The notes under the pieces were generated by a model. It ran no database searches and was not told where the DNA came from. It was given only the letters and a program-made list of their open reading frames with translations. The position numbers were made by a program, and so were the translations under genes. This document shows, piece after piece, positions 4,486 through 46,809 of a stretch of DNA of 64,000 bases. Source of the DNA: Ulota crispa (lineage: Eukaryota; Streptophyta; Bryopsida; Orthotrichales; Orthotrichaceae); NCBI GenBank assembly GCA_963920765.1, contig OY987249.1, positions 250,501 through 314,500 on the forward strand, in the 5' to 3' direction. Each line of letters begins with the position of its first letter. The stretch's first letter is position 1.

Positions 4486-4489
4486 CTAA

Positions 4490-5330
4490 CCCCTAAAGGA
4501 CCGTTGTCCCTTCAAGGGACAATTAGGATTGCGGGCACATACCTATAGCTAAATTACTTTATGTAATATTTTGAAACTTTTAAGGAAGATGGGGAATTCA
4601 AAGATCTATGTGGGCATCAATTTTTTTCCTCATTTTGACATTCAACAAAGAAGTTATGCAAGAATTTTTGCTGCCCAAAAGAGGGAGGCAATCTAAGCAA
4701 CCCAAAAACTTCTTTAAAATTTGTATTTTTCAAAAAAAAAAATTTGAAATTTGTTCTTTAGATTTTTTTTTTAATACTTGGAAAGCTTTGAATCATTCCA
4801 TTTCAATCAATGAGATAAAAGTTATGAGATGTTTTTGTTTGTGGACAGTTACAAAATCTCTACTCTAAAATAAACTTTGAAGTCCTTTGTTTTACTCAAA
4901 TTTCAACATTTTGGAAAAATAATTAAGGTAAGAGAAGTACATTGTTTATCTCAACATTATCACCGTTGGGATTTGCATTTTTCATTTCAATAATTAAATT
5001 TTGAACAATTTAGTGATTTGACTCATTCTCTACTTCTTTTTACTTACTATTTTTTCCCATGTTTTGTATAGTTTCAATTGATTTGAAAATTCTCCCACAC
5101 ATGCCTAACTTGGTCTTCTACATGGAAAAAATAAATCTCAACTTTGTATAAAGCAATTTTTTTCATGTAAGAGTGGTCAAAGGCTTCTAAATTTTTTGCA
5201 TAGCACGGAAAAAGTCCTTTTTTTTTCACTTCAGATGTAAAGATCTCCCTCCTCTCCATCTAGAATGACCTGATTTTTTTCTCACAAGTACTTCTTCTAG
5301 TCTAAGACAAGATTTTATGGTTGGATTTCC

Positions 5331-5375
<45 letters not shown>

Positions 5376-5449
5376 ACCTTCTTACTTATCCCCTAGAAGT
5401 GATAGTTTTCAAAAAAATTTACAAAGAAAAGGGCTTGATCCTTTACGGG
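4490..5449 (+). mobile_element. TTAA-type MITE, B family, flanked by CTAA
   Basis: Starts CCCCTAAAGGACC and ends GATCCTTTACGGG. It belongs to the B family of about 920-960 bp that recurs in this window at 9937, 11234, 15041, 27819, 34449 and 45791. Here both flanks are CTAA (4486-4489 and 5450-5453) instead of TTAA. A poly(A) run of about 40 bp (about 5331-5372) lies inside. No long reading frame; non-autonomous. Assignment to a piggyBac-like group rests on the ends and the TTAA flanks of its relatives. Confidence 0.8.
5331..5372. repeat. Poly(A) tract
   Basis: A run of about 40 adenines inside the element at 4490-5449. Other copies of the family lack it, so it expanded after insertion. Confidence 0.95.
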
Positions 5450-5453
5450 CTAA

Positions 5454-6829: not shown

Positions 6830-7661
6830 GGGCATTTTCACCGGTGGCTCAAGCTCGCTCAAAAAGTGGATGAAATGTGTCTAGGTTCCTCTCAAAACCT
6901 TCTCAAATTCTCTTAGGGTCACTTTACACATGGGGGCCGAGCCAATTTGGCTTGGGGCCAATTGCCTCAAATTTCAATCGACATTTTGCTTAAGGCTGGC
7001 CTCCACTATTAATTAAAATAAGATTGTAGTGGTGGCCAATTGTCTCATATGTAAAGGCCTTAAGGCCAAGGATTTGGGCCAATTCAATAAAGTTAAGCCA
7101 TCTTTACACTAGAGGTGAGAAGTTGTGACAAAAATCTCTTTATGGGCCATGGCTTGTTTTCAAAAAGCTAGCCTTTGGAGATAGTGGCTTCTTGTTGCAA
7201 TGTAAAGTGAGAATAGGCCACAATAATTTTTGAGATGAATTAACTTCTTTAATTTTAAAATTTTAAAATGAAACAATGACATGATGATAAACACCAAAAA
7301 AATAGATTTGGATAAAGGGGGACTTTGTCAAAATGTGCATGAACCCTAAACATGAAGTTTGATATAAACTCTGAAGTTTTTTGTTTACATTATCAAGATA
7401 TGCTATACCAATTGTCTTCATTTATTTTCTTTTTATCAACCACAAAACACTTATAATATTTTTTTTTATTAATTGGTTCTTCCAAAAATCAAGTATTATG
7501 TAGATAGTATCTAGCAAAATAAATACTATGAGTTATAGATCATTAAGAGTATCTTGCATAAAAGATGATAGAAAAAAATCAACATATCAACATATGCAAG
7601 GTTTATATAAAGACTTTGAACATGAGAAGCATAGAAGGAAAAAATGATTTGCAAATAGATA

Positions 7662-8243
7662 CTCCCTCTATCCCATTATAAAGCTCCAAAAAACTTCTCC
7701 ATGAGGGATTAAATGAAGTTTTAGTCATTATGCTAGTGACAAATGCATTCTAGAATCAATATACCACCTACCAAATATCTGCAAAATCTCAAGTTTTTAT
7801 GTTGTCGTTTAGACACCCAAATTCCTTGCAAAAAGTACCATATTTGTGCATAGTTTGTGAAGGCTGCCGGCTCCTCATTATTTTATTCTTTGTACTAATG
7901 ACACTTGCATTCTAGAATCATTATACCATCTACCAAATGTGTATAAAATCTCTAACTTTGATGTTGCTGTCTGGGCACCCAAATTCCATGCAAAAAGTAC
8001 CATATTTGTACATGTTGCTAGCTCCTCATGATTGATGATTTAAAGATTAGTAGCAATGATGGTACCTCATATGGGCAAGGCCAAGCTTGTTAGGAGAGGA
8101 ATGCTCTTCAATTGCTTAACTTGCCCCCATGAGATCATTGGACATGACAAACGCTTTCTGAGCAATTGATATTAGCAAAAATGAGATTTTAAGGGGGACA
8201 AGAACTATGCCTAATTTGGAATTTCATATTGGGACAGAAGGAG
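7662..8243. mobile_element. Stowaway-like MITE (Tc1/mariner type)
   Basis: Ends CTCCCTCTATCCCA and TGGGACAGAAGGAG match the usual plant Stowaway terminal motif. TA flanks at 7660-7661 and 8244-8245. Copy 2 of the host repeat lacks this insertion and has one TA at the equivalent place (about 12746), so the insertion and its TA duplication are shown directly. 582 bp, no coding capacity. Confidence 0.92.
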
Positions 8244-8324
8244 TACAAAATATACAAGCCTAGTGTTTTTTATACACATAAGAACTAGTTAGTAAACCCA
8301 TTTAGCAAGCTAACCACTCCATGC

Positions 8325-8360
8325 CTTTCATGCCCCCCATGCCCCCCATGCCCCCCATGC
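8325..8360. repeat. 9-bp repeat (GCCCCCCAT)
   Basis: About four units of gccccccat inside C element copy 1. A related but shuffled version occurs at about 12826-12856 in copy 2, so the run existed before the copies separated and changed length afterwards. Confidence 0.85.
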
Positions 8361-8910
8361 CTCCAATGTACAGGGGTATTATGGATTTGATTTGAGAAAC
8401 AATATATATTCTATGAAAAAAACAAAATTTTAATGAAACTTGACATTGGCCCCAAGGCCAAGAATTGGCCTCTTGTTTTTGGTGCACCCAATTCAAAGAG
8501 CTTGGGCCATGTCAAATCTTGTCTTTGTTGAATAAAAAATTCATTTCACCAAATTGGCCCTCCCTCTAGGTGTAAGGGGGTTGGGGATGATTTCAACTTT
8601 TTGTCAAATCAAAAGTCAGGATTAGTGACCTCTGACGCACTGAGTTGGCCTGGCTCACAAGTGTAAAGCGGCCCTTATTTAGCAAGTCTAGCAAGCCACT
8701 CTTCAAGCCACTATTCACGTACTATTCACCCTAAGTATAGTGAACTTTATCCTCTACTTCTTTAGATAAGTGGTCAACTGCTTATTTATGGAGTGTGTTA
8801 GACTGTAAGGCCACATTTTCAAAAAGCATGGGTGGAGATTGAGAGCCTTTAGGCCTCGCCAAACCAGATGAAAAGCTTTGAGCGAGCCTAGACTGGTGGA
8901 GATGCCCTTA

Positions 8911-9936
8911 GTCAATCTTATCCCCTCTTTGTGATTTTGGAGTAAACTAGAGTCTCTAAATCCAAGTATGACTTCAAGAATCCCAAACTCCCTCTCTTGA
9001 TAATAAATATCTAAACTCTTGCATTTGTGGTGAACAAAAGAGATGAGATTTTCCACCCTACCCCACAAAATGACATGGCATCTAACCCTAGCTGTTCTTG
9101 ACCTGACCTTAGTATATTCTATTGACAAATTTGTGGATACAAGATGGAAAAGCTTAATTTTAATTTAACTTAGCACAAAACGTAAGAATTTAGATATTTA
9201 TCATTAGGAGGGATTGCACTTGGGAATTTTGAGTTTGGATTGAGATTCACTGACCTTGGATGCGTCTATAACCTCTGAAAGAGATAAAATACACCAACTA
9301 CAAAAATAAGGGCAGATTCTCCTTTATACCCCTGTATTCTTGTATTTTGTAAGATAATTAGAGCTTTTCCACCCTAACCTCACAAAAACATGTGCGCAGT
9401 AAAGTAGTAAGCTTGAAAACTGTTCGCTCATTTTGAACCATCCAGTAGCTTGTTTTGAAATGGTGCATTGGTGGTTCTTACATTAGCCTCTTACAACTTA
9501 TTGAATGCATAGAAGAAAATTTGTTTTTAATTGCAAGAGTCAATCATTCTCCTTATTTCTTCAAATCTCTTCACAACTTGCAAGTGAACGGTTCTTGGAA
9601 GGTCTAAGGTTAATAATAGGGACCTATGACACATATACTTTGAGAATTCATAAGTAACTCAAAAATGCTTCAAAAAATATGAAACGACTTGTGTTACATT
9701 CAACATCTATTTCTCTTTGTTTGAAAAATGAAGTAAAAATCCTCCCATCCACGGAAGACCACAAAAAAGAGGGATGAGCCCTTAGATGGGCGGTTTTTGA
9801 GCGTACTACCTTATACTCATTGCAGGTTATGACATGTCAATGCCGCCAAAGCCACAGCTGATCCATTGCCCAGTTGGAATTACTGCATGGAGAAATTGTG
9901 CTCATTGCTTGAGATCCATTTTTATAATTTATTTAA
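8911..9936. other. Spacer, nothing recognised
   Basis: AT-rich sequence without repeat ends or coding signature. The small plus-strand frame at 9834-10061 runs across the boundary of the next element and is a chance frame. Confidence 0.5.
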
Positions 9937-10870
9937 ACCCCTACAAGACCAAGCCCATTTTTCTACCAAAATCATTGAAAATTGCCACTTCTAGGAGGTT
10001 TAGTAAAAAGGGATTTTATGTTTTGTTTTTGGGAAATCCAATTGTAGGGTCTTGTCCCTGATTAGAAGATGTACATGTGGGAAAAAAATCAGCTCATTCC
10101 AAATGGAGAGGAGTTAGATATTTACATCTAAAGTGAAAAAAAAAAAGTTGATTTCTATGCTGCCCAAAATTTCAGAAGCCTTTAACCACTCTTATAACAA
10201 AAAAATTGGTTTACCCAAATTTGCGCTTTATTTTTTCCATGTAGGAGATCAAGTTAGGAATAAGTGGGAGAAATTTCAAATCAATTGGAACTTCACAAGA
10301 TATGGGAAAAATTAGTAAGTAAAAAGAAGTAGATAATGAGTCAAATCACTAAATTGTTAAGAATTTAATCATTAAAATGAAAAATGCTAATCCCAAAGGT
10401 GATAATGTAGTGATAAACAATCAACTTCTCTTCCTTTAATTATTTTTCCAAAATGTTGAAATTGAGTAAAACAAAGGACTTCAAAGTTTATTTTAGAGTA
10501 GAGATTCCATAACTGCTTGCAAACTAAAACTCCTCATAACTTTCATGTCATTTAATGAAATTGAATGATTCAAAACTTCTCATAAATATAAAAAAATCTA
10601 AAGAACCAATTTCAAAATTTTATTTAAAATAACAATAAATTTTAAGGAATTTTTTGGGCTACCCAGACATGCAATCCTCCCCAAATTTTCACAAATTCAT
10701 GCATAACTTCTTCATCAAATGTTGAAATGAAGAAAATATTAGATGCCCATGTAGATTTTTGAATTTCCCACCTTCAATAAAAGTCTTAGAAAATCACACA
10801 AAATAGTTTAGCCATAAGTACATGCCCGAAGTCCAACTTGTCCCCCAAAAGGACAATGGTCCTTTAAGGG
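9937..10870 (-). mobile_element. TTAA-type MITE, B family, inverted copy
   Basis: Right end ggacaatggtcctttaaggg is followed by TTAA (10871-10874); left end reads TTAA-ACCCCTACAAGACC with TTAA at 9933-9936 and one extra A. Internal sequence is the reverse complement of the elements at 4490 and 11234. The open frame 10133-10315 is a chance frame within it. Confidence 0.83.
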
Positions 10871-10874
10871 TTAA

Positions 10875-11085: not shown

Positions 11086-13160
11086 GGGCCGCTTTACATA
11101 TGGAGGCTGGGCCAACTTGGCTTGGGGCCGATTGCCTCAAATTTCAATCCACATTTTGCTTAAGGCTGGCCTCCACTACTAATTAAAATAAGATTATACT
11201 ATGGGCCAATTGTCTCATATGTAAAGGCCTTAGCCCCTAAAGGACCATTGTCTATTCAGGGGACAAATGGGATTTTGGGCATGTACCTATGGCTAAACTA
11301 CTTTGTGTGATTTTTTGAAACTTTTATTGAAGGTGAGGAATTCAAAGATCTAAGTGGGAATGTAATTTTTTCTTCATTCCAACATTTATTAAAGAAGTTA
11401 TGCATGAAGATATGGAAAATGCTGCTCCCTGGGCAACCAAAAACTTCTTTAAAATTTCCATTTTTTTCAAATGAAATCTAAAATAGGTTCTTTAGACTTA
11501 TATAGACATGGGGAGCTTTGAATCATTCAATTTTGATAGATGAGATGAAAGTTATGAGGAGTTTTTGTTTACGGGCAGTTCTAGATTCTCTACTCTAAAA
11601 CAAACTTTGAAGTCCTTTATTTTACTCAATTTTCAATATTTTGGAAAAAAGAAAAAACCAAAGGATGTAGATTGTTTATCACAACATTATCACCATTTGG
11701 ATTTGCATTTTTCATTTTAATAATTAAATTCTTAACAATTTAGTGATTTGACTCATTCTCTATTTCTTCTTACTTACTATTTTTTCCCATGTGTTGTATA
11801 GTTCCAATTGATTTGAAAATTCTCCCACACATACCTAATTTGGTCTTCTACATGGGAATAATAAACCTCAACTTTGTGTAGAGTAATTTTTTTGAACTAA
11901 AAGTGGTCAAAGCCTTCTGAAATTTTTGGGCAGCAACAATTAAATAATAATCCGCAATTTAGATGTAAATATCTCACTCATTTTTGTGTAGATTAAGCTG
12001 ACTTTTTTACCACATGTACCTCTTGAAGTCTATTGTAAGATCTTGTGGTTGAATTCTTATAAGAAATAAATTTCTTACCATTGTAGTTGCTTCTCCAAAA
12101 GTGGCAGTTTTCTATGTTTTTTGCTTAAAAATGGCTTGGTCCTTTTGGGGGTTAAGGCCAAGGAGTTGGGCCAATTCAATAAAGTTAAACCATCTTTACA
12201 CTAGAGGTGAGAAGTTGTGACAAAAATCTCTTATGGGCCATGGCTTGGTTTCAAAAAGCTAGCCTTTGGAGATAGTGGCTTTTTGTTGCAATGTAAAGTG
12301 AGAATAGGCCACAATATTTTTTAAATGAATGAATTTTTTTTATTTCTAATTTATTAAAATGAAACAATGACATGATGATAAACACCAAAAAAGTAGAGTT
12401 GGATAAAGGGGGACGTTGTCAAAATGTGCATGAACCCTAAACATGAGTTTGAAACAAATTCTTTGGTTTTTTGTTTACATTATCAAGGTATTTTATACCA
12501 ATTGCCTCCATTTATTTCCATTTTATCAACCACAAAGCATTTGCAATAATTTTTCCTATTAATTAGTTCTTCCAAAAATCAAGTTTTATGTAGATAGTAT
12601 CTAGCAAAATAAGTACTATGAATTATAGATCATTAAGAGTATCTTGCATAAAAGATGATAGAAAAAAAATCAACATATCAACATATGCAAGGTTTACATA
12701 AAGACTTCATGAGAAGCAGAGCAGGAAAAAATGGTTTGCAATTGATACAAAAGATACAAGTGTAGTGTTTTTATACACATAAGAACCAGTTAATAAACCT
12801 ATTTAGCAAGCTAAATACCCCATGCCCCTCCAAGCCCCCCCATGCCCCCCCATGTCCAAGGTATTACGGATTTGATTTGAGAAAAATATATACTCTATGG
12901 AAAAAACACAAAATTTTAATGAAACTTGACATTAGCCCCAAGGCCAAGAATTGGCCTCCCATTTTTGGTGCATCCAATTCAAAGAGCTCAAGCCATGTCA
13001 GATCTAGTCTTTGTTGAATAAAAGACTCATTCCACCAAATTGGCCTTGCCTCTAGTTGTAAAGGACTTGGGGTTGATTTCAACTTTTTGTCCAATCAAAA
13101 GTGAGGATTCTTGGCCTTCAACATAATGAACTGGCGTGATCCCCATATGTAAAGCGGCCC
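11086..13160. mobile_element. Harbinger-like element (C family), copy 2, with TTAA-type insertion
   Basis: Clean 18-bp inverted ends: GGGCCGCTTTACATATGG and CCATATGTAAAGCGGCCC. Flanks are AAA on the left and TAA on the right, consistent with a decayed TWA duplication. It is colinear with copy 1 (6916-8674) through sequences such as caacatatcaacatatgcaa. Without its inserted B element it is about 1153 bp. No transposase frame is present. Confidence 0.87.
11234..12151 (+). mobile_element. TTAA-type MITE, B family, with matching empty site
   Basis: Begins CCCCTAAAGGACCATTG and ends GGTCCTTTTGGGGG, 918 bp. The host C element reads aaaggcc-TTAG before it and TTAA-ggccaagg after it. C copy 1 at 7053-7070 reads aaaggccTTAAggccaagg without any insertion. 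This is a related empty site that defines the element boundaries and shows a TTAA duplication, with one base since mutated (TTAG). Confidence 0.95.
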
Positions 13161-15036: not shown

Positions 15037-15040
15037 TTAA

Positions 15041-15963
15041 TCCCTAAAGGACCAAGTGTCTATTCAACAGACAAATGGGATTTTGGGCATGTACCTATGG
15101 CCAAACTACTTTGCATGATTTTTTGAAACTTTTATTGAAGATGGGGAATTCAAAGATCTACGTGGGCATCTAATTTTTATTCCAATTGATGCCTGTGAGA
15201 AAAAGTTATGCCCAAATAAGCACAAAATTGGGGACTCCGGGCAGCAAAAAAATTCTTATAAAAACTTGAAAAAAAATTTTCTCATAGATTATATCTTTGT
15301 CTACATCCACAGCTTTGATTCATTCCATTTGGACTAGATATGAGAAAGTTAAGGACAATCTTGTTTTTTGGGCAGTTCAAGCATCTTCTTGAAAAAATAA
15401 CTTATAAACTTCATTTTTGAATGCAATTTTAACATTTTTTCAAAAGAAATTGTTGGAGAGGGTGAAGTTTGCTTTTTGGAACAACCTCACCATTGGGATC
15501 ATTGCATTTCAATTCCATTGCAGGGTTATTAGCAATTTAAGTTTTTGTTCAATCTCATACCTTCTTGTGCCTAATGTTTTTTTTTAAAGAATGAAAATTA
15601 ATGATTTATTTATTTATTTATTTATTTATTTATTTCCCAAGATTACCAACTCAACTTCCCACCATGCAAAAATAGAATTCCAAACTCTATGTTGCAAAAA
15701 TTTTAAGTTAAAAAAGTTCAAAATTAAATAATCTAGTCATGCAAGGTGCAAAAAAAGTTGTTTTTTGCTTTTTAAATGCAAAATTTTTCCAATCTATGCA
15801 ATCAAAGTTATTGAGTTTTGTATGACACATTCCTATAGTAGTCTAGTACAAGATCCTACGGTTAAATACGCAAAAAGATTGATTTTCATACATTTTTACT
15901 CTTTGCCATAGAGGTGGTAGTTTTAAGTGTCTTTTGACAAAATAAAGGCCATGGTTTTAGGGG
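15041..15963 (+). mobile_element. TTAA-type MITE, B2 subfamily
   Basis: TTAA at 15037-15040 and 15964-15967. Begins TCCCTAAAGGACC and ends CATGGTTTTAGGG. Interior (caaaaagttatgcccaaata type sequence, and a right part shared with 27819 and 34449) defines a second B subfamily that shares ends with the first but differs inside. A TTTA microsatellite lies at about 15601-15637. Confidence 0.88.
15601..15637. repeat. TTTA tetranucleotide microsatellite
   Basis: About eight units of ttta/attt inside the B2 element. Confidence 0.95.
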
Positions 15964-16162
15964 TTAAGCACTCTATATATATGCTTAGTTTAACTTCTCA
16001 TTGCCTAAGTGGACAAAATTTCCCCATTTTTTGTGTATTTTGAGATTTATTGGAGATAAAGGGTTAACAACAAATCATGCTTTTATTTGAGTTGTTGGAT
16101 AGACCACAAGTAGTGAAGTGTATGATTGTTGAAGAGTTGACCAAGAGGCATATGTACATTAA

Positions 16163-20848: not shown

Positions 20849-20879
20849 GATGCAACACGCGCAATAAAGGGGGGACACC

Positions 20880-21896
20880 ATGAAGGGCTTGTTTAAGGAG
20901 AAGAAGCGCACGATACCGGAACTGGTGCGGTTGACGAGAGAGTTGCTGTTGTCGCTCAATGCCGCACGCGATCCGAAGCGCGAGGAGAAGATGGTGGATT
21001 TGGGCAAGAATATCCGGGATTTGAAAATTGTGTTATATGGGAATAGTGAGGCGGAGCCCGTACCGGAGGCGTGTGCGCAGCTGACACAGGAGATGTTCCG
21101 CGAGGATGCCATGCGGTTGTTGATACAGAGTTTGCCGAAACTGGACTTGGAGGTGCGGAAGGATGTCACGCAGGTGGTGGCTAATTTGCAGCGGCAGCAG
21201 GTTCAGTCGCGGTTGATTGCCGCCGACTATTTGGACAAGAACAAGGACCTTCTGGATCTTCTTGTTGCAGGGTACGACAAGCCGGATTTGGCTTTGCATT
21301 ACGGCGCCATGCTGCGCGAGTGCATTCGGCACCAAAGTATTGCGCGTTATGTATTGGAGTCGAAGCAGAATTTGCTCAAGTTTTTCAAATATATAGAGTT
21401 GCCTAATTTCGAAGTTGCCTCTGATGCGGTTGCTACTTTCAAGGAGCTCTTGACGAGACATAAGTCCACGGTCGCGGACTACCTCAACAAGAACTACGAC
21501 TGGTTTTTCTCGGAATATAATACTAAGCTGTTAGCCTCTCCAAACTATATTACGAGACGGCAGATGGTGAAGTTGTTGGGAGACATCCTGTTGGATCGTT
21601 CCAATGTGAATGTGATGATGCGGTATGTCAGTTCTAAGGAGAACATGTGTATTCTTATGAACCTGCTCAAGGACTCGAGCAAGAGCATCCAGATTGAAGC
21701 CTTTCATGTTTTCAAGGTGTTTGTTGCCAATGAAAACAAGCCTCCCGAGATCGTCAACATCTTGGTGGCTAATCGAAGTAAGTTTCTTCGGTTCTTTAGT
21801 GACTTCAAGAGCGAGAAGGAGGATGCGCAATTCGACCAAGACAAGGCTCAAGTCGTGAAAGAGATCTCCAGTTTGGAACTGAGGGACCAGCATTAG
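20880..21896 (+). CDS. MO25: MO25-like protein (CAB39 family scaffold)
   Basis: A 338-residue protein in one uninterrupted exon, the full length expected for MO25/CAB39 (about 340). MO25 is an armadillo/HEAT-like helical scaffold that binds STRAD pseudokinase and activates STE20/GCK-type kinases in the cytoplasm; in plants and fungi it is tied to cell polarity and division. Family landmarks include [20 protein letters not shown] (about 140-159), the [20 protein letters not shown] segment (about 173-192), the [17 protein letters not shown] block and [20 protein letters not shown] near the C-terminus. The ATG lies in a good context (acaccATGa), and the start MKGLFKEKK replaces the usual MSFSFFK-type start. 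The intron-free coding exon is unusual; angiosperm MO25 genes normally have introns. Codon use is GC-richer than the flanks. Intact, no sign of decay. Confidence 0.96.
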
Positions 21897-22470: not shown

Positions 22471-22994
22471 AGTTTCTCTTCTTTTTGGCCTCAGTTCTTA
22501 TTTCATATTGGAACCAGGTGTGGGGGGTTGCTGCTGAGGCTAGGGATTATAACATCCAAACTTCCTAACAATTATAATCATGCATTTGAGTATAAGTAAT
22601 GTACAACCATAAGTGTCACTGTCCCCATAACCGTCACCTCTGAAATCTTGGAAAATCTGTGGAAGTGGATAGATGTAATGACAAGGATGTACAACATGTG
22701 AACATAAAATCTTGAAAGTGGTTATGGGTACAATGGCAGTTTGCTCTTTAAAATTTCACAACTTATTCAGGAGTATTCAAATAATACATTTGAGAGTGCA
22801 AACTTATTATTTTTTTGTTCCTAATAGGATCTTATAATTTGCTAGTTGTTTATTGATACTCATCATGTTCAAAACCCTTAGTTTGACGCTTATGGGTGTA
22901 CATACCTTATGCACACATGTTGAATATTTCATCAAAGTATATTGATTTTATATATTGGTGAGCATGAAATTTTTAATCCAATTTTTCATTTGTC
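22471..22994. other. AT-rich spacer
   Basis: No coding signal or repeat ends recognised. Confidence 0.5.
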
Positions 22995-25629: not shown

Positions 25630-26235
25630 CCTCTCAAGCATTGAACACCCTTTTTTTTTGGCAACATAGCAATTTTGGGCAATTGACTACCAATGGGATT
25701 CTTGTTCTTTTTCTTTGAAATTTTCACACATTATGTGTTCAAGGAGTAACTTTAAGGCCCAACAATTTTCATAGCTTTTGACTTCATGGTTCAAAAGTTA
25801 TTGCATGATATGTAGTTTTCTTTGCCTGGGGCAGGCAACCAATTTTTTTTTTAAATTACATTTTTTGAATCATATTATTTTTAATTGATTTTTTAGATTT
25901 ATATATACTTGGGAGGCTTTGAATCATTCCATTTTGATCAATGAGATGAAAGTTATGAGTGTATTTTGTTTGCGGGTAGTTATGGATTCTCTACTCTAAA
26001 ATAAACTTTGAAGTTCATTGATTTACTCAATTTTCAATATTTTGGAAAAAAAACATAACCAAAAGATTTAGATTTTTCATCACAACATTATAACCATTGG
26101 GATTGGAATTTTTCATTTCTTTAATTAAGTTCTTAACAATTTAGTGGTTTGAATCATTCTCTACTTCTTTTTACTTACTACTGTTTTTTCTTGTGTTTTA
26201 CAATTCCAAATGATTTGAAATTTTTCAAGTGTGTA
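25630..26235 (+). mobile_element. Truncated B-like TTAA-type element
   Basis: TTAA at 25626-25629 is followed by CCTCTCAAGC, and from about 25890 the sequence tracks the B family (for example tttgaatcattccattttga and gaatcattctctacttcttt). Homology stops near 26235 without a right end, so the copy is 3'-truncated. Confidence 0.65.
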
Positions 26236-26627
26236 CCCAACTTGCTTTGAAGAACAAATTCAGAAATTTACAACCATCTTGTAAGTTTATTATAATTTTT
26301 TATCTCAAATGAATAAAATCCTTGTTATATTATGCCCCACATCAATTCTAAAATGCTCTAAGTGATCCACCCAAACCCCTAACAAACACCAAAAATTCCA
26401 ATACGTGTAGCTCCGGCAGTACTACTCTAAGTGTGCATGTCACATGATCTCCACCAAGTGTGGGTACCACTTCAAGTGTGCAAGACACATGCTGCTCCAT
26501 TGTTGCAATTCATCTTGAATCAAACTAAATGTTGTAACCCATGTAAAGAGCCTCACGAGCAAAATAAAACAAAAATTCATGCGTTATTACCACAGCAACA
26601 CAACCTTGTGATCACAACCCCCTAGCT
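26236..26627. other. Spacer
   Basis: No recognised feature; short plus-strand frame 26431-26625 has no domain. Confidence 0.45.
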
Positions 26628-27814: not shown

Positions 27815-27818
27815 TTAA

Positions 27819-28741
27819 CCCGTAAAGGATTGTGGCCTTTATTTTGTCAAAAGATACTCAAAATTGCCACTTCTGTGGCAAACAACAAAAAGTTTGAATA
27901 TTGGACTTTTTGCATATCTAACCATAGGATCTTGTATCAGACTAGTATAAAAATGTACCATAAAAATTTCAAAAACATTAACCACACAGATTGCAATATG
28001 CATATAAAGTGTAAAAAACAAACTTTTTAGCACCTTGCAATCTTGCATGATTAGATTGTTTGAATTTGAACTTTTTTAACTTAAAATCTTTGCACCCTAT
28101 AATTTGGAAGTTTAATTTTTTATGGTGGAAAATTGAGTTGAGAATCTTTGGAAAAAAATCAAAACAAAAAATACTTAATTTTCATTCTTAAAAAAAATAT
28201 TAGGTAGAACTAGAAGGAGGTATGAGATTAAACAAAAACTCAAATTGTTAATAACCCTACAATGGAATTGAACTGCAATAATCCCAATGGTGAAATTGTT
28301 ATAGAAAGCACACTTCACCCTTTCCAACAATTTTTTTGGGAAAATGTTAAACTTGCATTTAAAAATGAACTTCATTAGTGATTTTTTCAAGAAAATGCTT
28401 AAATTGCCCAAAAAACAAGATTGTCCATAACATTCTCATAACTAGTCCAAATGGAAAGAATCAAAGCTTCAAATGTAAATAAAACTATAATTTATGAAAA
28501 CAAAAGTAAAAAAATCCAAGTTTTTTTAAGAAAATATTTGCTGCCCAATCTCCCCAAATTTATGCTTATTTGGGCATAACTTTTGCTCCCATACCTAAAT
28601 TGAAATAAAAATAATATTCCTCAAAAACTAGTGTTTTTCTATCTTCAAAAAAAGTTTCAAAAAATCAAAACAAAAATTGAGACCGTAGGTACTTGCCCAA
28701 AATCACATTTGCCCCCCAAAGGGACAATGATCCTTTATGGA
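27819..28741 (-). mobile_element. TTAA-type MITE, B2 subfamily, inverted copy
   Basis: TTAA at 27815-27818 and 28742-28745. Starts CCCGTAAAGGATTGTGGCC and ends GATCCTTTATGGA. Reverse-complement match to the elements at 15041 and 34449. Overlapping small frames are chance frames. Confidence 0.87.
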
Positions 28742-28745
28742 TTAA

Positions 28746-30578: not shown

Positions 30579-31446
30579 CAGTACCAGGTAGTACAGTTAG
30601 GTAGTGTCTGTTTTGGCATTTTCAATAAATTTGTATAACAAAAAATATAAATGGTATTATAATCTCATATTGTTGGTGTATGATTCTCATGCAATTTCAA
30701 TCAATCATATCAAAATTTGGTTGCTAAAAGCAAAAATCTTATTTTTGGTAAATTGTTTTGTGTCAAATTCATGGTTTTACAAGAAAGCTGATTAAAAAAC
30801 ACTAATGATGAATTTTTGAGATTTGATTGCATGGATGTGTTGGGTACTTCCGTGCGCACATCTTCCCTTCTACCAAGCATCTTCAAAAAGTTCAAAATTT
30901 CTTCAATGGAGACTTGAACATTGGTGTAATCATGACCAAATTTAGTAAAATAGATATTTCTATATGGTAATTAAATTGTGCTATTTGACTCATACATTAT
31001 GATTGAATTTGTACCTTTGAGCATGTTGATATGTTTATTTTGCCAAAAGTTATTAAAAATTTTGAGATATCTATTTTACTAAATTTGGTCATGATTACAC
31101 CAATGTTCAAGTCTCCATTGAAGGAATTTTGAACTTTTTGAAGATGCTTGGTAGAAGGGAAGATGTGCGCACGGAAGTACCCAACACATCCATGCAATCA
31201 AATCTCAAAAATTCATCACCAATGTTTTTTAATCAGCTTTCTTGTAAAACCAAGAGTTTGACACAAAACAATTTACCAAAAATAAGATTTTTGCTTTTAG
31301 CAACCAAATTTTGGTATGGTTGATTGAAATTGCATGAGAATCATACACCAACAATATGAGATTATAATACCATTTATATTTTTTGTTATACAAATTTGTT
31401 GGAAATGCCAAAACAGGCACTACCTTAACTATACTACCTGGTACTG
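30579..31446. mobile_element. Foldback DNA element with about 385-bp near-identical arms
   Basis: Left arm about 30579-30960, right arm about 31068-31446, spacer about 107 bp. Ends CAGTACCAGGTAGTA and TACTACCTGGTACTG are flanked by TA (30577-30578 and 31447-31448), suggesting a Tc1/mariner-like or related TA-inserting element. Mirror-image open frames on opposite strands encode near-identical peptides (for example both contain MNFLKMLGRREDVRTEVPNT), which reflects the arms and does not by itself indicate a gene. A transcript through it would fold into a long double-stranded hairpin. Confidence 0.92.
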
Positions 31447-34444: not shown

Positions 34445-34448
34445 TTAA

Positions 34449-35370
34449 CCCCTAAAAGGACCATTGTCTATTCAAGGGATAAATGAGATTTTGGGCATGT
34501 ACCTATGGTCTCAATTTTTATCTTGATTTTTTGAAACTTTTTTTGAAGATAGGAAAAACACATTAGCTTTTGGGGAATATAATTTTTATTCCAATAGATG
34601 CTAGGGAGCAAAAGTTATGCCCATACAAGCAAGAAAATATGGAGATCGGGCAGCAAATAAAATTTTACAAAAACTTGATTTTTTAAATTTTTTTTTTCAT
34701 CTCATAGGTTATAGGTTTGTCTACATTTGAAGCTTTGATTCATTCCATTTGGACTAGTTATGAGAAAGTTATGGACAATCTTGTTTTTTGGGCACCTCAA
34801 GCATCCTATTGAAAATTTAACTTATAAACTTCATTTTGAATGCAAATTTAACTTTTTTGCAACAAAAAACTATTGGAAAGGGTGAAGATTGCCTTCTAGA
34901 ACAATCTCACCATTGGGATTATTGTGTTTCAATTCCATTGCAAGGTTATCAAAAATGTAAGTTTTTGTTCAAACTTAGACCTTCTTCTATTTAATGTTTT
35001 TGAAGCATTAAAATTAAGTATTTTTTGTTTTGGTTTTTTGCCAAAAATTCTCAACTCATTTCTCCACCATAAAAAAATAAACCTCACAACTCCATGGTGC
35101 AAAAATTTTATGTTAAGAAAGTTCAAAGTCAAATAATCTAATCATGCAAGGTGCAAAAAAGCTTGTGTTTTACACTTTAAACGCAAATATCTTGCAATTT
35201 GTGTGGTCAAAAAATTTAAGTTTTGAATAACACATTTTTATACAAGTCTAGTACAAGATCCTATGGTCCAATATGCAAAAAGACCAATTTTCAAACTTTT
35301 TTTCTCTCTACCATAGAAGTGGCAGTTTTGAGTATCTTTTGACAAAATAAAGGCCATGATCCTTTAGGGG
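34449..35370 (+). mobile_element. TTAA-type MITE, B2 subfamily
   Basis: TTAA at 34445-34448 and 35371-35374. Ends CCCCTAAAAGGACC and GATCCTTTAGGGG. 922 bp, same subfamily as 15041-15963 and the inverted copy at 27819-28741. Confidence 0.92.
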
Positions 35371-35374
35371 TTAA

Positions 35375-38998: not shown

Positions 38999-41900
38999 TC
39001 ATGACAAAATTACTTCTGGATTGCGTGATGAAGCTTTTAGCCGTAGGAGATCGGTTAAGTTTTCCATCATTGAAGGCCTGTGAGTTTCCATGGCAGGCAC
39101 GTGCTTAAGTATCTCTAGGGCAACTCCCATCCACAGTTCAGCAGTGTCATATTTCTGCAATTTCAGGTATAGTGCACCTCTGTTCCAGGCCGTGGAAACC
39201 AGCCACTGGGCTTCGTCTTGTGGATACACCTGATCGCCCAACCCAGAGAAAACCTGTTGTGCTTGCTTGTAGAGGTCTAGTACCTGGCAAAAGTTCATTC
39301 ACTTCATGAGATAAACAACCAGGCAATAGCAGAGCTAACTGAAGCAAAGTTAGCGACATGAATGTTACGGTCGAGTTCATTGCATGCTTAGGTTCTACAG
39401 AGTTTGGAAGATTCACTAAAAGAAGAATAGAGGACAAAGACTTCGGGCTCGCCTCTGGGCCATCTTTGCAGCGGCTGTTTGCCAGGTTGATCATCTTTCT
39501 GATGACCGCAGCAACCATTTTGTAATCGGCGTTCGGAGTACTGAGAGTTAGGGTTAGGCACATGCGGAATGAGACTGTTGCAACTTCCATACCGAGTTGT
39601 TTACTTTCCGAGGCCTCCAGGCCCATTTTGAAATAGTGTTCAGCTGTAAACCCGGGCATGCTGCTGCACCGTTTCAGTATTTTGAGCTGTTCTACATAAT
39701 CTTTCGCTTTTCCTTTGAGTTCAAATAGTAGCATGTTCAGGTGGATATCGTAGCTTTCGTCAACCGTGATCCCGGGGTCTGGCATAGCCTCAAGTGCCCT
39801 GTGCACCTGCAGAAAACGGAAAATGCGTGATTGTTCTAATCACGTAGACCAAGAATCAAGAAGAGAGAACCAGGGTGAATGATAGAGCATACCAGCTGAC
39901 ATTTATCCAAGTAGGTCGTTGCGATGTGGATCACCTCGTTCTCGTTCTCGTTCACATCTTCTGTTGCCAGTAAAGCCGACACGGAAAGCAGCAAGGCTGT
40001 TTGGACGAACTGAAGACTGCCGGGAGACGGGGGCAGCGCAGAATAGAAATTTGAGGATATCGCGTAAAACTCGAAACACGACTTCCAGTTTTCTTCTTTG
40101 CCACATTCCATGGCCTGATTCCAAGCTGCTCCTGCAAACCACTTCGCCTCTCGTTCTCCATTGCTTCCGGCACCAAAGAATTTCTCACACCCTACCTCCT
40201 GCAGACGCTTTTGAGCGCACTTGAAATACTTTAATATGTCACTGCGATTGTTTCTTCCTTGAACAAGTAGTAAAATTAGATTTCTGAGAACGACAACTTC
40301 TCCTGTGGCCGGCATTCGTTCAGAGTTGTACAAGGTTAACATGCTGCCAAGTGCAGCAACTGCAACTGTGACCACTTTGCAAGCAATGGCCTCGTGGCAT
40401 GCAAGATTTAAGAAGTCCGGCTCGAAGTCGGGACATTTCAACATCCTCTCGACTTGCTTGCATGCCTCTGCTTCATCTCTTGCTTGCAATACTAGCTTGA
40501 ACTGCATCAACAAATATCTAGATTAGCAACCTTAACTAGTGGTTAATTGACGGAGAAATTTAATGCAAGGTAGTTCATCACCAATATTCAAGATCTTTAA
40601 TTTTAATTTTTTTTCTAAATGATGTAAAGGACAAGGGTTTAGTACCTTGAGAAATATGCTTGCAATGCTTGGATCGATCTGTACGGCAATGTGCAGATCG
40701 TCATTAAAAATCAAAAGGCTTATCAAAAAAGATTTCTCAAGGTTTTCTTGAAGTAGACTACAATACTACAACTGGAAGTGTGCGGCTTGCTAACAACGCA
40801 AGGTAAGTTTTCTCAACTCAATGAAGCCCGTAACCGTCAATAATAAACCGGTGACGATTTACGAATCGGAAAGCTCTGGGATCACCACACACAAATGATT
40901 GGCCTGCTTCCATTAGATTCTCTACCTTCTCCGCTCTATCAATGACCTCCGCAGCTCGTTCGAATTGGGAGAGAGCCATATGGCAAAGACAAAGAACACG
41001 AAGGGACTTGGCCTCGAGCATGCATCCTTTGTCGTCTTGCAATATATACAGCATAGAAGCTTCGAAGAGTTGAATGCTTCGCTTGTATAATTTTGCTTGA
41101 AAATGTTCGGAGCCACTGCCAGTACTTGCATCAATGAGACTTCGAGTTGTCAAGCTGTAAAACGTAGTAAACAGAACTACTTGGCACTTGTGACAAATCA
41201 TAAATGCAAAACATGGCTATAATGCCGGTATTTTGCAGCATAAGTAGACAAATTGTTTTGCGTAATGGTGTACAAATTTTCTGTCCACTAATTTGTACCT
41301 ATTATCTGAGAGGACACCTTCAGCAGCTGCGAAGGAAAGAAAATTACTGATCAAAGGATTATGAACAAGAAGTAAGAAGTTACCTCGTCCAGAGGAGCGT
41401 GTGAACAAATTGTTGCTGTTGTGGTGCACTGTGCTTTCGTCTGTCCTCCAAAACTAGGACTTCGTTTTCTGCCATTAGAGCTGTAAGAATCCTCTCGTCA
41501 CAGGCTATTTTCAAAGCCAGTTCAACGCGTTTGATGCAACTCAGATCATCAGACGGCTCCAGCCGTAATAACTTCTCCAGAACTTTGGCAGCGAGCTGCT
41601 CTTTGTCTGGACCGACATGCTCCAGCAGAACGAAAAATGCCTTCTCAACAGCATCAATTTTTCCAGATTCTTGAATGACTATCTCAAGTGCCGAGACATA
41701 AACATCAACATGTTCCCCAGCGTGACCGACAAGGGTGAAAAGCTCACGCTCAACCTCATCATGCCGTTCCAATTTTGCTAAAGCTCTAAGTGCAAAATAC
41801 GATGTACTTGAAAGATCTGTTATGAGTCTTAGCGCGTCCACGCACCGCAGTGCACTCTCATAATTTTCATTCTGTAATTGACCAGCTGTCAAATTACGCA

Positions 41901-42714
41901 GGATCCGTTGCTTTAGCCTCTCCAGGTTAGTCTTATCGTCCTCATTGGGCTGAGGAATGCTAAGAGCCTCAGAGCAGATATCTAAACCGGTTTCCATGTA
42001 CCGAACAGAATCAGCCTGGGAATCAGTGTCATCCTTCGTCAGAAGAGACTTCCCGAAGTGCAAATACTGCTCTGCCAAATCTGCATGGCGGTTTACAGGA
42101 ATACTGGAAAGAAGACCTCGAGCTTTTCCCAACAGACTACATGCAAGTGTTTCGCCACCGAGCTCCCAAGCCGTTCGAGCTCGAGCTATAAACAAGTCAA
42201 AGAAAAAATCAAGCTGTTCTCTGGTAGCTAAAGATTGGGAAGTCCAACCGTCTTGCTTGAAGCAAAGCTCAAATGCCTTCTCGAAACACGCCGAGGCTTT
42301 CAGATATTTTCTAAGTTTGTGCCATGCGCAACCAGTTTTGAAAAAGAATGTCGCTATCCTTACAAACCTGGAGCGCGCGTTTCCAATGGCGCCAGCTATG
42401 GCCAAAAGATCGCTCGCAATCTGACGAAGCTCTGCGTGGTCCTCGTTAAGTTCTTGATCGCCCTCCAGGTTGTTCACTATATCCACGCTGGTGTTCCATA
42501 ACCGGTAGCTCAGCCGCCACGCATGAATCCGCTGTTCTTCGGAAAACTCAGCTTCAGCAATACTCTCGAGACAGTTACGAAGATGCTGCACATTTTCAGG
42601 ACTGAGCGACGTCGGAGACGCCTCTTCTATTTCGTGCACAAGCTCCTCAATTCGTTGAAGAGACTCGACCTTTGGAGTTTCCATGTCCTCATTCGGCAAC
42701 TCGTGGATTTTCAT
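38999..42714 (-). CDS. ZIP4: ZIP4/SPO22 meiotic TPR protein
   Basis: Six predicted exons: 42714-41384, 41115-40926, 40678-40646, 40501-39893, 39806-about 39417 and 39283-38999. Together they encode about 945 residues, close to the known plant length (about 936 in Arabidopsis). ZIP4 is a TPR-repeat member of the ZMM group, acting on meiotic chromosomes to promote class I crossovers and synapsis. Seen here: the N-terminal IHAWRLSYRLWNTSVDIVNN, then SACFEKAFELC, LLWTS joined to GSEHFQAK, the DRAEK/IDPSIASIFLK/FKLVLQ joins, NWKSCFEFYAIS and the C-terminal QWLVSTAWNRGALYLKLQKY. The third exon is only 33 bp and fits exactly between its neighbours. The acceptor of exon 2 and donor of exon 5 are chosen by family alignment and are less sure (alternative donor at about 39402). 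No internal stop or frameshift. Upstream is a GAGT-type microsatellite in the leader (about 42790-42812). Confidence 0.94.
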
Positions 42715-44283
42715 CGCGTCAACTCACCGAAAACAACTTGAAAATTGAGCAAAGGAATTAAGAATTAAAGATTTACTCAGAGCAGGCACACCTCACACTC
42801 ACTCACTCACTCTGCCAACTGAGTCGAATGAAGCATTCTGACATGAAGGTGCAGATGCCTTCGAGAAACCGGCACAGGCCACAGGGTGAAGAGCCATGGG
42901 CGCGAGACTCAGTTCCTCGGACTGAACCCTCCGCGTCGATTGCTGTCCAATTATTTCAAAATTCAAAACTCTTCACTCCTTGTCCACTCAAGAAGAGTAA
43001 AGTGGAGCACTGGTTTGGAGTTCTCCTTCAAAAACTCTATGCTGAGTCGACTTTTATTTTTATTCCCTATACTCATCAGCGGGTTTCTTTTTGGCGCAAA
43101 ACAGCCAAAAAGAACCAGGCTCTTTGGTCTGTCGATTGGGCCCTTGATAAAAATTGGTGATTTTTTTTACATGAAGTCAAATTGTCTCCTTCCATGACAA
43201 ATTACTCGTCATGTGGCTTTGTTTGTCACTCTTATTTGTGTCAAACATATTAGTTGGTTTTGCATTAGTGCGTCGCGAGTGGCTTTGCCACTTTGCACTA
43301 GCGCATTGTTGCTTGTCGCTTTTTTTCTTTAATTGTCACTTTCATAATTGCGCTTCCCACCTAAGTTATGGACTTCTTTATGTTGATGCAATCTGTGCAA
43401 GTTGCCTCGTTACACTTGTGTGACTGCCAATTTTGTGGTTGTGCTAAACACGTGTTGCGTCAAGACTTACAACAATGGTGATTGGTGGCTGTACATAGTA
43501 AAACTTTGAAGTAGTTGATGAGAGGTTTATGAAGTTACAGTGTGCTAGTTTAGGGTTTCATTATGTGTTTAATTGCTCATTTTTTTTGCACAATTGCAAT
43601 ATTATGTAAAGAGATTGTCATGTTTGTCTTGGATCTTTGAAGTTATTGTTTTTTGTTAGGAACTTTGAATGCAAACCCCGCCACAAGTAACAAAAATACG
43701 TTGAAAATTGTAATAATATAGCCACTGGGGAGCAAAAATATGCTGAAAATTATATTATTGTAGGCATTGAAATTATACTTCTCATCAAGACATTTCGCCT
43801 ATACTTGTATTCAAAGATTTTATTTTGTCGCCAAAATACTGCGTACACTTTCCACTCGACGCCATACGTTTTCTCCTTGCAAATAAAAACAATTACGTAT
43901 TTGGCTTTGTATTTTTCAAACAAGGAGCCACAATGGCTGACCACCAAAAACAAACAAAAATGCCCTGATACTCATACTTGACTAGATCTTTTTTTAATGT
44001 TGAGTGTATATTATACAAAACTTAAATGCCTTTAAATTTATGCAACATTGTGATTACAAATTAGCATATATAAAATGTAACTTGTAGCTTGGTTTGGTGC
44101 TAGACACTATTTTTTTCAAAGTAGTGGAAATTGTTATTTTGATCCAACCAAATTGGGATGTTGAAGCATTATATATATAATGGTACAATTGTACACATCA
44201 GCCTAGGTACCAAGGATTTTTTGGTTTGCAAAAAATCCACTAAGACATTCACTCATATGCTCTTAAATTGTAGGGAGTACCAC
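42715..44283 (-). promoter_or_regulatory. ZIP4 upstream region and AT-rich spacer
   Basis: About 42715-43100 has gene-like composition and probably holds the ZIP4 leader and promoter, with a ctcactcactcact microsatellite. Plus-strand frames 42828-43160 and 42886-43197 have no recognised domain. From about 43200 the sequence is AT-rich with no feature seen. Confidence 0.45.
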
Positions 44284-45786: not shown

Positions 45787-45790
45787 TTAA

Positions 45791-46657
45791 CCCCTAAAGG
45801 CACAAGCCCTTCTTTTTTGTGAAAGTCACTAAAAACTGCCAATTTTGGGGGAATGAGTAGAAAAGTAGGAAAAATGTTTTTTTGATAATCCAATTGTAGG
45901 GTCTTTCTCTAGATTATGGAAGGTACTTAAGGGAAAAATACTCAACTCATTCTAGATGTAGAGGAGTAAGATATTGACATCTGAAGTGAATTTTTTGTTT
46001 TTTTTTTCCTATTGCCCAAATATTTTAGAAGCCTTTGACTGTCAAGCCGCTCCTATATCAAAAAATTGCTCTACGCAAAGTTGAGGTTTAATTTTACCAT
46101 GTAGAAAACCAAGTTTAGTAAGTGTGGGAGACTTTCAAATGAATTGGAGGTGTGAATCATACTTCATAAAATCTTGTAATGTTATAAGGTCATGAAATCT
46201 GCATATACACTAGGCAAAATTGGAGGATTTATATAAAATTCAAAAATGTAAGTTACTTTGATCCATATGGCAAAAACCAAGGAATTTTAGTCTACTACAA
46301 CTTGGAAAAAATGAAAGTCAAAAAACAAATACACAAACCACTCAAAAAATTGAAGCATTAAATTTTACAAAGAGCAAAACAAATGGAGGTTTGGGAGTCC
46401 CCCCAATATGGGCACCTTCCACTCCACTCTCCTTTGCCCAAGTGTCCACACCTTGTGCTCACAAGGGCTGATCCATTTTGGAGTCAACACCCACTTACAA
46501 AGGAGAGGCCTTGTCCAAATTGCCCCTCCTTGCCCAGTTTAAAAAAATCTTGATAAATTCTTCTTCAAAAATTGGAATGAAGAAAAAAATTAGGCGCTAG
46601 CATAGATCTTGGGATTTCCCACCTTCAATAAAAGTTTCTTAAAATCACACAAACTAG
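45791..46657 (-). mobile_element. TTAA-type MITE, B family, inverted, right end lost
   Basis: TTAA at 45787-45790, then CCCCTAAAGGCACAAGCCC. The sequence follows the B family in reverse at both flanks but differs in a middle block (about 46150-46560). Family homology stops at about 46657 (cacacaaactagtttt) about 60 bp before the expected right end, replaced by coding-like sequence. Confidence 0.75.
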
Positions 46658-46809
46658 TTTTGCGAGCAAATAGGAAGAAGCCCAGTCAGAAGTTGCAAAA
46701 GGGGAAGTCAGCGCGTGGTGCCCATGCTCTAGCTAGTAGAAGACAACTTCCACGCAAGAGCGCGGCCAAGCCTGCGGATACTTCCTCAAAGAAGAAGAAG
46801 GGCAATTAG
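46658..46809 (+). pseudogene. Lys/Arg-rich coding-like fragment fused to a MITE
   Basis: Immediately after the broken B element the base composition and codon use turn gene-like. The frame reads RKKPSQKLQKGKSARG, then RRQLPRKSAAKPADTSSK, ending KKKKGN and a TAG. It looks like the basic C-terminal tail of a nuclear or nucleolar protein, but I cannot name the family. An AG (aaatag) just before GAAGAAG could be a splice acceptor. It may be a captured 3' exon, a gene relic, or the last exon of a gene whose other exons I did not find. Confidence 0.45.

Follow-up and report, generated by a model that had tools for sequence, protein, structure and literature searches.

The moss Ulota crispa carries, in two copies of one repeat, a site that is intact in the first copy and interrupted by 918 bp in the second, and this arrangement raises the question of what kind of element was inserted there and which transposase could have moved it. 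The window, i.e. the whole stretch of 64,000 nucleotides that was analysed, corresponds to C8:250501-314500 of assembly cbUloCris4.1 (genome of 274.8 Mb, 157 contigs). We conclude, at a probability of about 95%, that a piggyBac lineage of approximately 7 kb in the moss genome has given rise to the 918-bp element, which is a MITE-like, non-autonomous piggyBac transposon. The odds for this reading rest on the linkage of its ends to transposase genes.

The insertion and its target site

The boundaries of the insert were deduced from three short sequences, each of which occurs once within the window: the intact site AAAGGCCTTAAGGCC at 7053 (pattern count), the flank AAAGGCCTTAGCCCC at 11223, which is interrupted by the insert, and GGGGGTTAAGGCC at 12147. 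Therefore, the element occupies positions 11234-12151, between TTAG and TTAA (Table 1), and the filled and empty pair reported in the preliminary description is real. The alignment of the two host copies proposed there agreed with it as well: after removal of the MITE and one 4-bp copy, the joined flanks were 92% identical to host copy 1 over 449 columns, and the junction was gap-free. The same joined flanks matched a further 29 host-repeat copies, which makes 30 distinct ones in total, all without a gap at the junction. In the 31 rows of this comparison, which count copy 1 twice (as 'window' and as L009), the site reads TTAA in 18, TTGA in 10, and TTGT, ATAA and CTAA in one each; TTAA is found in 17 of the 30 distinct copies. 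As all these copies lack the insert without any gap, the empty state is the commoner one, and the insertion added itself and four bases. The empty sites seen here may be ancestral rather than excised.

A similar picture was obtained for the whole genome. The exact left end, CCCCTAAAGGACCATTGT, stands directly after TTAA in 1,284 of its 1,486 occurrences (86%), and reversed-pattern controls gave none; TTAA makes up 0.63% of 4-mers in the window, thus this association is not due to chance. Such whole-genome exact counts are free of the best-scoring-copy bias of our sample of 41 copies, which is non-random and consists of the window copy, the 39 best-scoring others (with 500-bp flanks) and the older relative at 9934-10873. 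In this sample, a script found TTAA on both sides of 25 copies (L056, inspected by eye, would make 26), on one side of 12 and on neither side of four (L042, L044, L051 and L063); the window copy (WIN2) is counted among the 12 after visual inspection of its flanks.

The preliminary description pointed to other related empty sites, and seven further insertions provided them. When the joined flanks of the 41 copies were compared with about 294 kb of fetched loci, a few kb more, and the window, related sequence spanning the junction was available for eight copies (WIN2, L039, L045, L046, L047, L066, L070 and L072), the remaining 33 of the 41 being uninformative. All eight were gap-free at the junction after removal of four bases, with small gaps a few bases away from it in some comparisons. 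The related rows all read TTAA for L045 (three rows), L066 (three) and L070 (one). Both TTAA and TTTA were found for L047, and TTAA once and CTAA four times for L072 (two CTAA rows being one window sequence). The seven rows for L039 contained no exact TTAA (CTAA in three, then TTAG, ATAA, CTAG and TGAA), nor did the site of L046, which reads TCAG only. A four-base TTAA duplication accompanies insertion of the MITE; a different target duplication, which the preliminary description had named as contrary evidence, did not appear in these copies or empty sites. L045 and L066 are insertions of opposite orientation at the homologous TTAA of one repeat family (window 22592-22917).

The assertion that the original pair proves a TTAA duplication stood only in part: the pair holds, but TTAA is a palindrome, and one pair alone does not distinguish its duplication from that of TTA/TAA or TA within a TTAA target. 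Since the palindrome blurs the boundary in any single filled and empty pair, and the host repeat is itself PIF/Harbinger-like, one could imagine a Tc1/mariner or PIF/Harbinger element that duplicates TA or TTA/TAA and strongly prefers TTAA. We give practically no credence to this possibility, as 86% of the left ends follow TTAA, whereas the flanks of the host repeat in the same genome are varied three-base T-N-A sequences (TTA, TAA, TCA and TGA), as in PIF/Harbinger, and the linked transposase is that of piggyBac. It is this link to a piggyBac transposase that settles the choice between TTAA and the shorter duplications. Like the Tourist/PIF-Harbinger MITEs, to which the host repeat is akin, the 918-bp element is a high-copy plant MITE whose inverted ends are short; its TTAA flanks and piggyBac link do not fit that group, and the T-N-A flanks and GGG...CCC ends of the host repeat are unlike it. 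The host repeat has inverted ends of the GGGCCGCTTTACATATGG type, is non-autonomous and is present in high copy number.

Structure, copy number and relatives of the MITE

The consensus of the 41 copies has perfect 14-bp inverted ends, CCCCTAAAGGACCA, which extend to 18 bp once TTAA is added. A published hallmark of piggyBac, general although not invariable, is inverted ends of 12-19 bp with CC[C/T]T and TTAA (PMC2872659), and the 14-bp ends, which begin with CC, fall within this length range. As to the CCYT-like ends of the preliminary description, the CCC start was found, but not a strict match to the letters of the motif: the consensus reads CCCCT, with one C extra. The older window copy reads CCCTT, and the ends adjoining other transposases of the genome read CCCTT, CCCCT or CCCTA.

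In the window copy no open stretch exceeds 59 amino acids, the length of the longest one, therefore the element is non-coding. Classification of MITEs relies chiefly on common ends and target duplications (PMC2872659). Being non-coding and short, with inverted ends and a high and homogeneous copy number, the 918-bp element from Ulota crispa is a non-coding piggyBac-type MITE. When the genome was searched with the insert, 8,280 first-look candidates were obtained, the best 40 of which were scored and showed 88-100% identity. The 41 copies are 910-933 bp long; identity to the consensus is 92-95% for the copies and 80% for the older window relative. The 40 close copies are on average 89% identical to one another, and the insertions therefore do not look recent. 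The right end with TTAA, at no more than three mismatches, occurs 5,202 times genome-wide, relatives included, compared with none in the control; the MITE and its relatives have thousands of occurrences in the moss genome. Three exact right ends at C1:22709367, 22709425 and 22709483, on the same strand and spaced by 58 bp, suggest that the terminal segment is repeated in tandem there.

Table 1. Positions of the MITE, its target sites, host repeats and relatives within the window
Feature	Position	Strand	Remarks
Host repeat copy 1 (C repeat)	6916..8674	+	PIF/Harbinger-like non-autonomous; TTA/TTA flanks; carries empty site
Empty target site (TTAA) of host repeat copy 1	7060..7063	.	
Host repeat copy 2	11086..13160	+	carries MITE
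Left target-site copy	11230..11233	.	TTAG, mutated TTAA
Non-autonomous piggyBac-type element (MITE)	11234..12151	+	right end is the one common to transposase 3' ends
Left terminal inverted repeat, CCCCTAAAGGACCA	11234..11247	+	consensus 1-18 (with TTAA) pairs perfectly with 929-912
Right terminal inverted repeat	12137..12151	-	consensus plus one base; altered in window copy
Right target-site copy	12152..12155	.	TTAA
Older relative of MITE	9934..10873	-	80% to consensus; TTAA 5', TTTA 3'
MITE-family relative	4487..5453	+	full profile length; CTAA/CTAA flanks; E 2.5e-216
MITE-family relative	15038..15967	+	TTAA both sides; E 8.2e-81
Partial MITE profile match	25820..26246	+	profile positions 193-616; E 2.2e-89
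MITE-family relative	27815..28744	-	TTAA both sides; E 6e-49
MITE-family relative	34446..35374	+	TTAA both sides; E 4.5e-66
Member of second related high-copy family	45787..46683	-	TTAA on 3' side

A second family combines the 3' end and a 5' piece of the MITE with a different middle. Its window member, 45787-46690, consists of a MITE-like 5' piece (46683-46501), other sequence, and a 3' end (46156-45787) that resembles the end adjoining a transposase on C6. The best 40 of 3,629 first-look candidates were scored, and the 39 others were 81-87% identical to the window copy; no listed transposase adjoined these 40 places on inspection by eye. We considered this element as a possible link to the 5' end of the autonomous element and set it aside as another high-copy family.

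The window also contains an open frame for a Mo25-like protein (20868-21896, +), another for a SPO22/ZIP4-like meiosis protein (41380-42723, -), and two adjoining frames that resemble, by eye, pieces of a Copia-type polyprotein (54800-55930, -).

Ends in common with piggyBac transposases

The search with PF13843 (DDE_Tnp_1_7) gave 120 matches over the cut-off (best E 1.3e-73), coming from 116 scored of 528 first-look candidates. After pairing of split pieces, at least 116 piggyBac transposase places were counted in the moss, and none in the 14 control genomes. Fifteen loci (L078-L092) were fetched, and a TTAACCC end was found downstream of the transposase in 11 of them; none was present downstream of L082, L084, L085 and L088 in the stretches read. 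These ends vary (CCCTTTAGCGACCA, CCCTTGCATGACCA, CCCCTTGAGGACA and others), and because of such differences several piggyBac lineages seem to coexist. Most of the 11 ends diverge from the MITE past the first bases; L078-L080, which have little beyond the TTAACCC start in common with it, were rejected as its partners.

A different result was obtained for the transposase fragment L081 and its relatives. L081 matches PF13843 with E 3.1e-44, as well as the solved transposases of Trichoplusia ni (T. ni) piggyBac (6x67, E 1.8e-17) and piggyBat (9c0f, E 1.2e-11), with both of which its three D regions of the catalytic D..D..D align; Asp is lost from several transposase copies outside its group. A Cys-rich C-terminal region is a feature of piggyBac transposases, and such a stretch is present in L081 and L086. 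A genome search with L081 gave 115 matches, which we divided at 43% identity to L081, a line of our own drawing: there is no clear gap between the 44 rows at or above it (43-60%, L081 included) and the 71 rows below (31-41%), and one C4 locus straddles it with pieces of 56% and 41%. The group includes L086 (55%), the C6 locus (50%) and L082 (43%). Between the transposase frame of L081 and its right end, about 0.1-0.7 kb past the frame, lies an (HTYI)n repeat in three forward frames.

The 3' part of the MITE was found behind transposases of this group. Positions 559-929 of the MITE profile matched 3' of L081 (E 7.3e-24) and positions 562-929 matched 3' of L086 (E 2.6e-63), each oriented as a 3' end should be, and positions 563-929 matched 3' of the C6 transposase (L095; E 7.8e-78). 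The distance from transposase to 3' end is about 1.45 kb in L086 and about 1.48 kb in the C6 locus. Altogether, six loci of the L081 group have a MITE 3' end, three of them read and three recognized by coordinates. A right-end match 5' of L081 (L093, to position 742; profile 646-929, E 3.5e-7) was weaker and was assigned to a neighbouring element. Upstream of the L086 transposase, L094 contains a self-inverted sequence of about 800 bp, matching both strands, which is also present in the window at 30614-31410.

Neither the 41-copy profile nor an 18-bp end pattern detected a left end within 2.7-2.9 kb upstream of L081 and L086. Such an end was found on C1. The sequence at C1:661173 begins with an exact left end and is 91.5% identical to MITE positions 1-189 (profile match to 205), after which it departs from the MITE. 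The 601 unique bases that follow have six other matches in the genome. The best of these (71%, query 1-390) is followed 3.7 kb downstream by the group transposase C9:17731989, which has the same orientation. The remaining five measure 77 bp at most, and inspection by eye placed no listed transposase nearer than about 5 kb to any of them; one, on C6, precedes the C6 transposase by about 12 kb. Further along C1, a group transposase at 665966-667021, in three pieces with stops inside, is followed after 1.3 kb by an exact 27-bp right end at 668325-668351. By coordinates, C1:661173-668351 (7,179 bp) thus presents a left end, a broken group transposase and a right end in that order. As the first 948 bases alone were read, the whole element is pieced together from coordinates; it is probably a complete piggyBac element, at which the MITE would have its ends in common with an element encoding DDE_Tnp_1_7. 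Comparison of sequences indicates that about 190-205 bp at the 5' end and about 370 bp at the 3' end are common to the MITE and this transposase lineage. MITE consensus positions of about 205-560 were found in no transposase locus fetched.

Could the MITE-like 3' ends be independent MITE insertions beside piggyBac genes, the true partner being another element? MITE ends are very common, the 5,202 right ends with up to three mismatches being enough to place some near transposases by chance, and of the 30 transposase places outside the group within the listed stretch, one has a right end as well, 4.1 kb downstream. However, among the 100 exact right ends listed (C1-C3 and part of C4), the 27-bp end was found within 5 kb downstream of three group loci out of about 19 (our count after merging split pieces among 23 rows), always in the right orientation and never in the wrong one, while chance would give about 0.002 per locus, or about 0.04 in total. 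Moreover, the transposase-to-end distances in L086 and the C6 locus are nearly equal, the matches start at about position 560 instead of running across the whole MITE, and the C1 sequence departs from the MITE into unique DNA that is common with another transposase locus. Independent insertion is therefore highly unlikely.

Another possibility is that the MITE belongs to a different superfamily with the same target, and that the transposase merely shares the target of piggyBac. Kolobok and Sola3 also use TTAA, hence TTAA by itself is not diagnostic of piggyBac. On the other hand, the terminal sequences surround DDE_Tnp_1_7 transposases in correct order and orientation, and a member of the group matches solved piggyBac transposases, which makes a Kolobok or Sola3 origin extremely unlikely. 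Accordingly, assignment to the piggyBac superfamily, as in the preliminary description, is supported by TTAA, the CCC-starting ends and the linked transposase; ends tied to a transposase of another superfamily, which it had named as contrary evidence, did not appear, DDE_Tnp_1_7 being the superfamily searched.

On the piggyBac reading, the MITE is most likely moved by transposases encoded elsewhere in the genome. A transposase from the larger relatives would recognize the inverted ends common to both, and the MITE would be mobilized in trans, being excised and joined into TTAA so that one TTAA is left on each side. The chemistry would be of the cut-and-paste type; cut-and-paste transposition and precise excision are known properties of piggyBac (PMC2872659). 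The MITE could have arisen by internal deletion or rearrangement of a larger element, and its middle (about 205-560) may come from a variant that we did not read or from captured DNA.

piggyBac elements in the moss and in other plants

The preliminary description regarded piggyBac as rarely described in land plants. The host is indeed a land plant, a moss, but the superfamily has already been recorded: a survey found PiggyBac in all eukaryote groups studied (PMC4438587), and it is among seven MITE superfamilies of angiosperms (PMC10004981). Transposons of this type are already used for plant genome editing (PMC10794571). The moss MITE is thus probably a new family of an already known type. The angiosperm elements are likewise plant MITEs assigned to PiggyBac; in the text available to us (PMC10004981) the superfamily is named without ends or partners, whereas the moss has a transposase with the same ends. 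Among the listed titles and opening lines of abstracts on piggyBac in mosses, liverworts and plants, from a collection without most subscription journals and Repbase, we found no earlier account of the MITE family, and the main text of the Ulota crispa genome paper (PMC11803377) makes no mention of repeats, transposons, piggyBac or MITEs. A match to piggyBac in the Niphotrichum literature was rejected, as it concerned only the word 'piggybacking'.

A parallel may also be drawn with animals. Coral CMITEs and AmiPB1 (PMC2872659) similarly comprise non-autonomous TTAA elements with piggyBac-type ends, an empty and filled allele pair, and an autonomous piggyBac (AmiPB1) with common ends. The coral elements differ in their animal host, while the moss MITE is 918 bp long and has thousands of ends in a 275-Mb genome. 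With T. ni piggyBac (6x67) and piggyBat (9c0f) the moss elements have in common the TTAA duplication, CCC-starting ends, the DDE_Tnp_1_7 core and aligned D regions; they differ in the distant relationship of the moss transposase fragment (E 1.8e-17 with 6x67), the CCCCT ends, and the length of the putative full element, about 7.2 kb compared with about 2,472 bp in a well-defined piggyBac (PMC10813416).

The abundance of the family is unusual. The MITE profile has nine matches in the 64-kb window, covering about 6.6 kb or 10% (summed spans in a non-random sample). The 1.5-kb flanks of 29 host-repeat copies, 58 in all, form an equally non-random set, in which the profile covers 4,426 of 87,000 bases (5.1%) and matches 11 of the 58. 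In published tables, obtained by methods different from ours, PiggyBac accounts for 122,417 bp of the fern Ceratopteris (0.00%; PMC6890710), and the entry for the grass Stipa is 75 bp (0.00%; PMC8319324). It is likely that piggyBac is a major genome component in at least one moss lineage, with diverse transposases and several very-high-copy MITE families adding up to several percent of the genome.

The present analysis connects target duplication, ends and transposase within a single plant genome. If it holds a working copy, the L081 group could provide a piggyBac transposase native to plant cells. If piggyBac is indeed a major component, it would contrast with its near absence from the fern and grass tables, and mosses would be a place for studying the activity and silencing of piggyBac in plants. 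Should the share of several percent hold genome-wide, piggyBac would be a main force in the size and structure of the moss genome.
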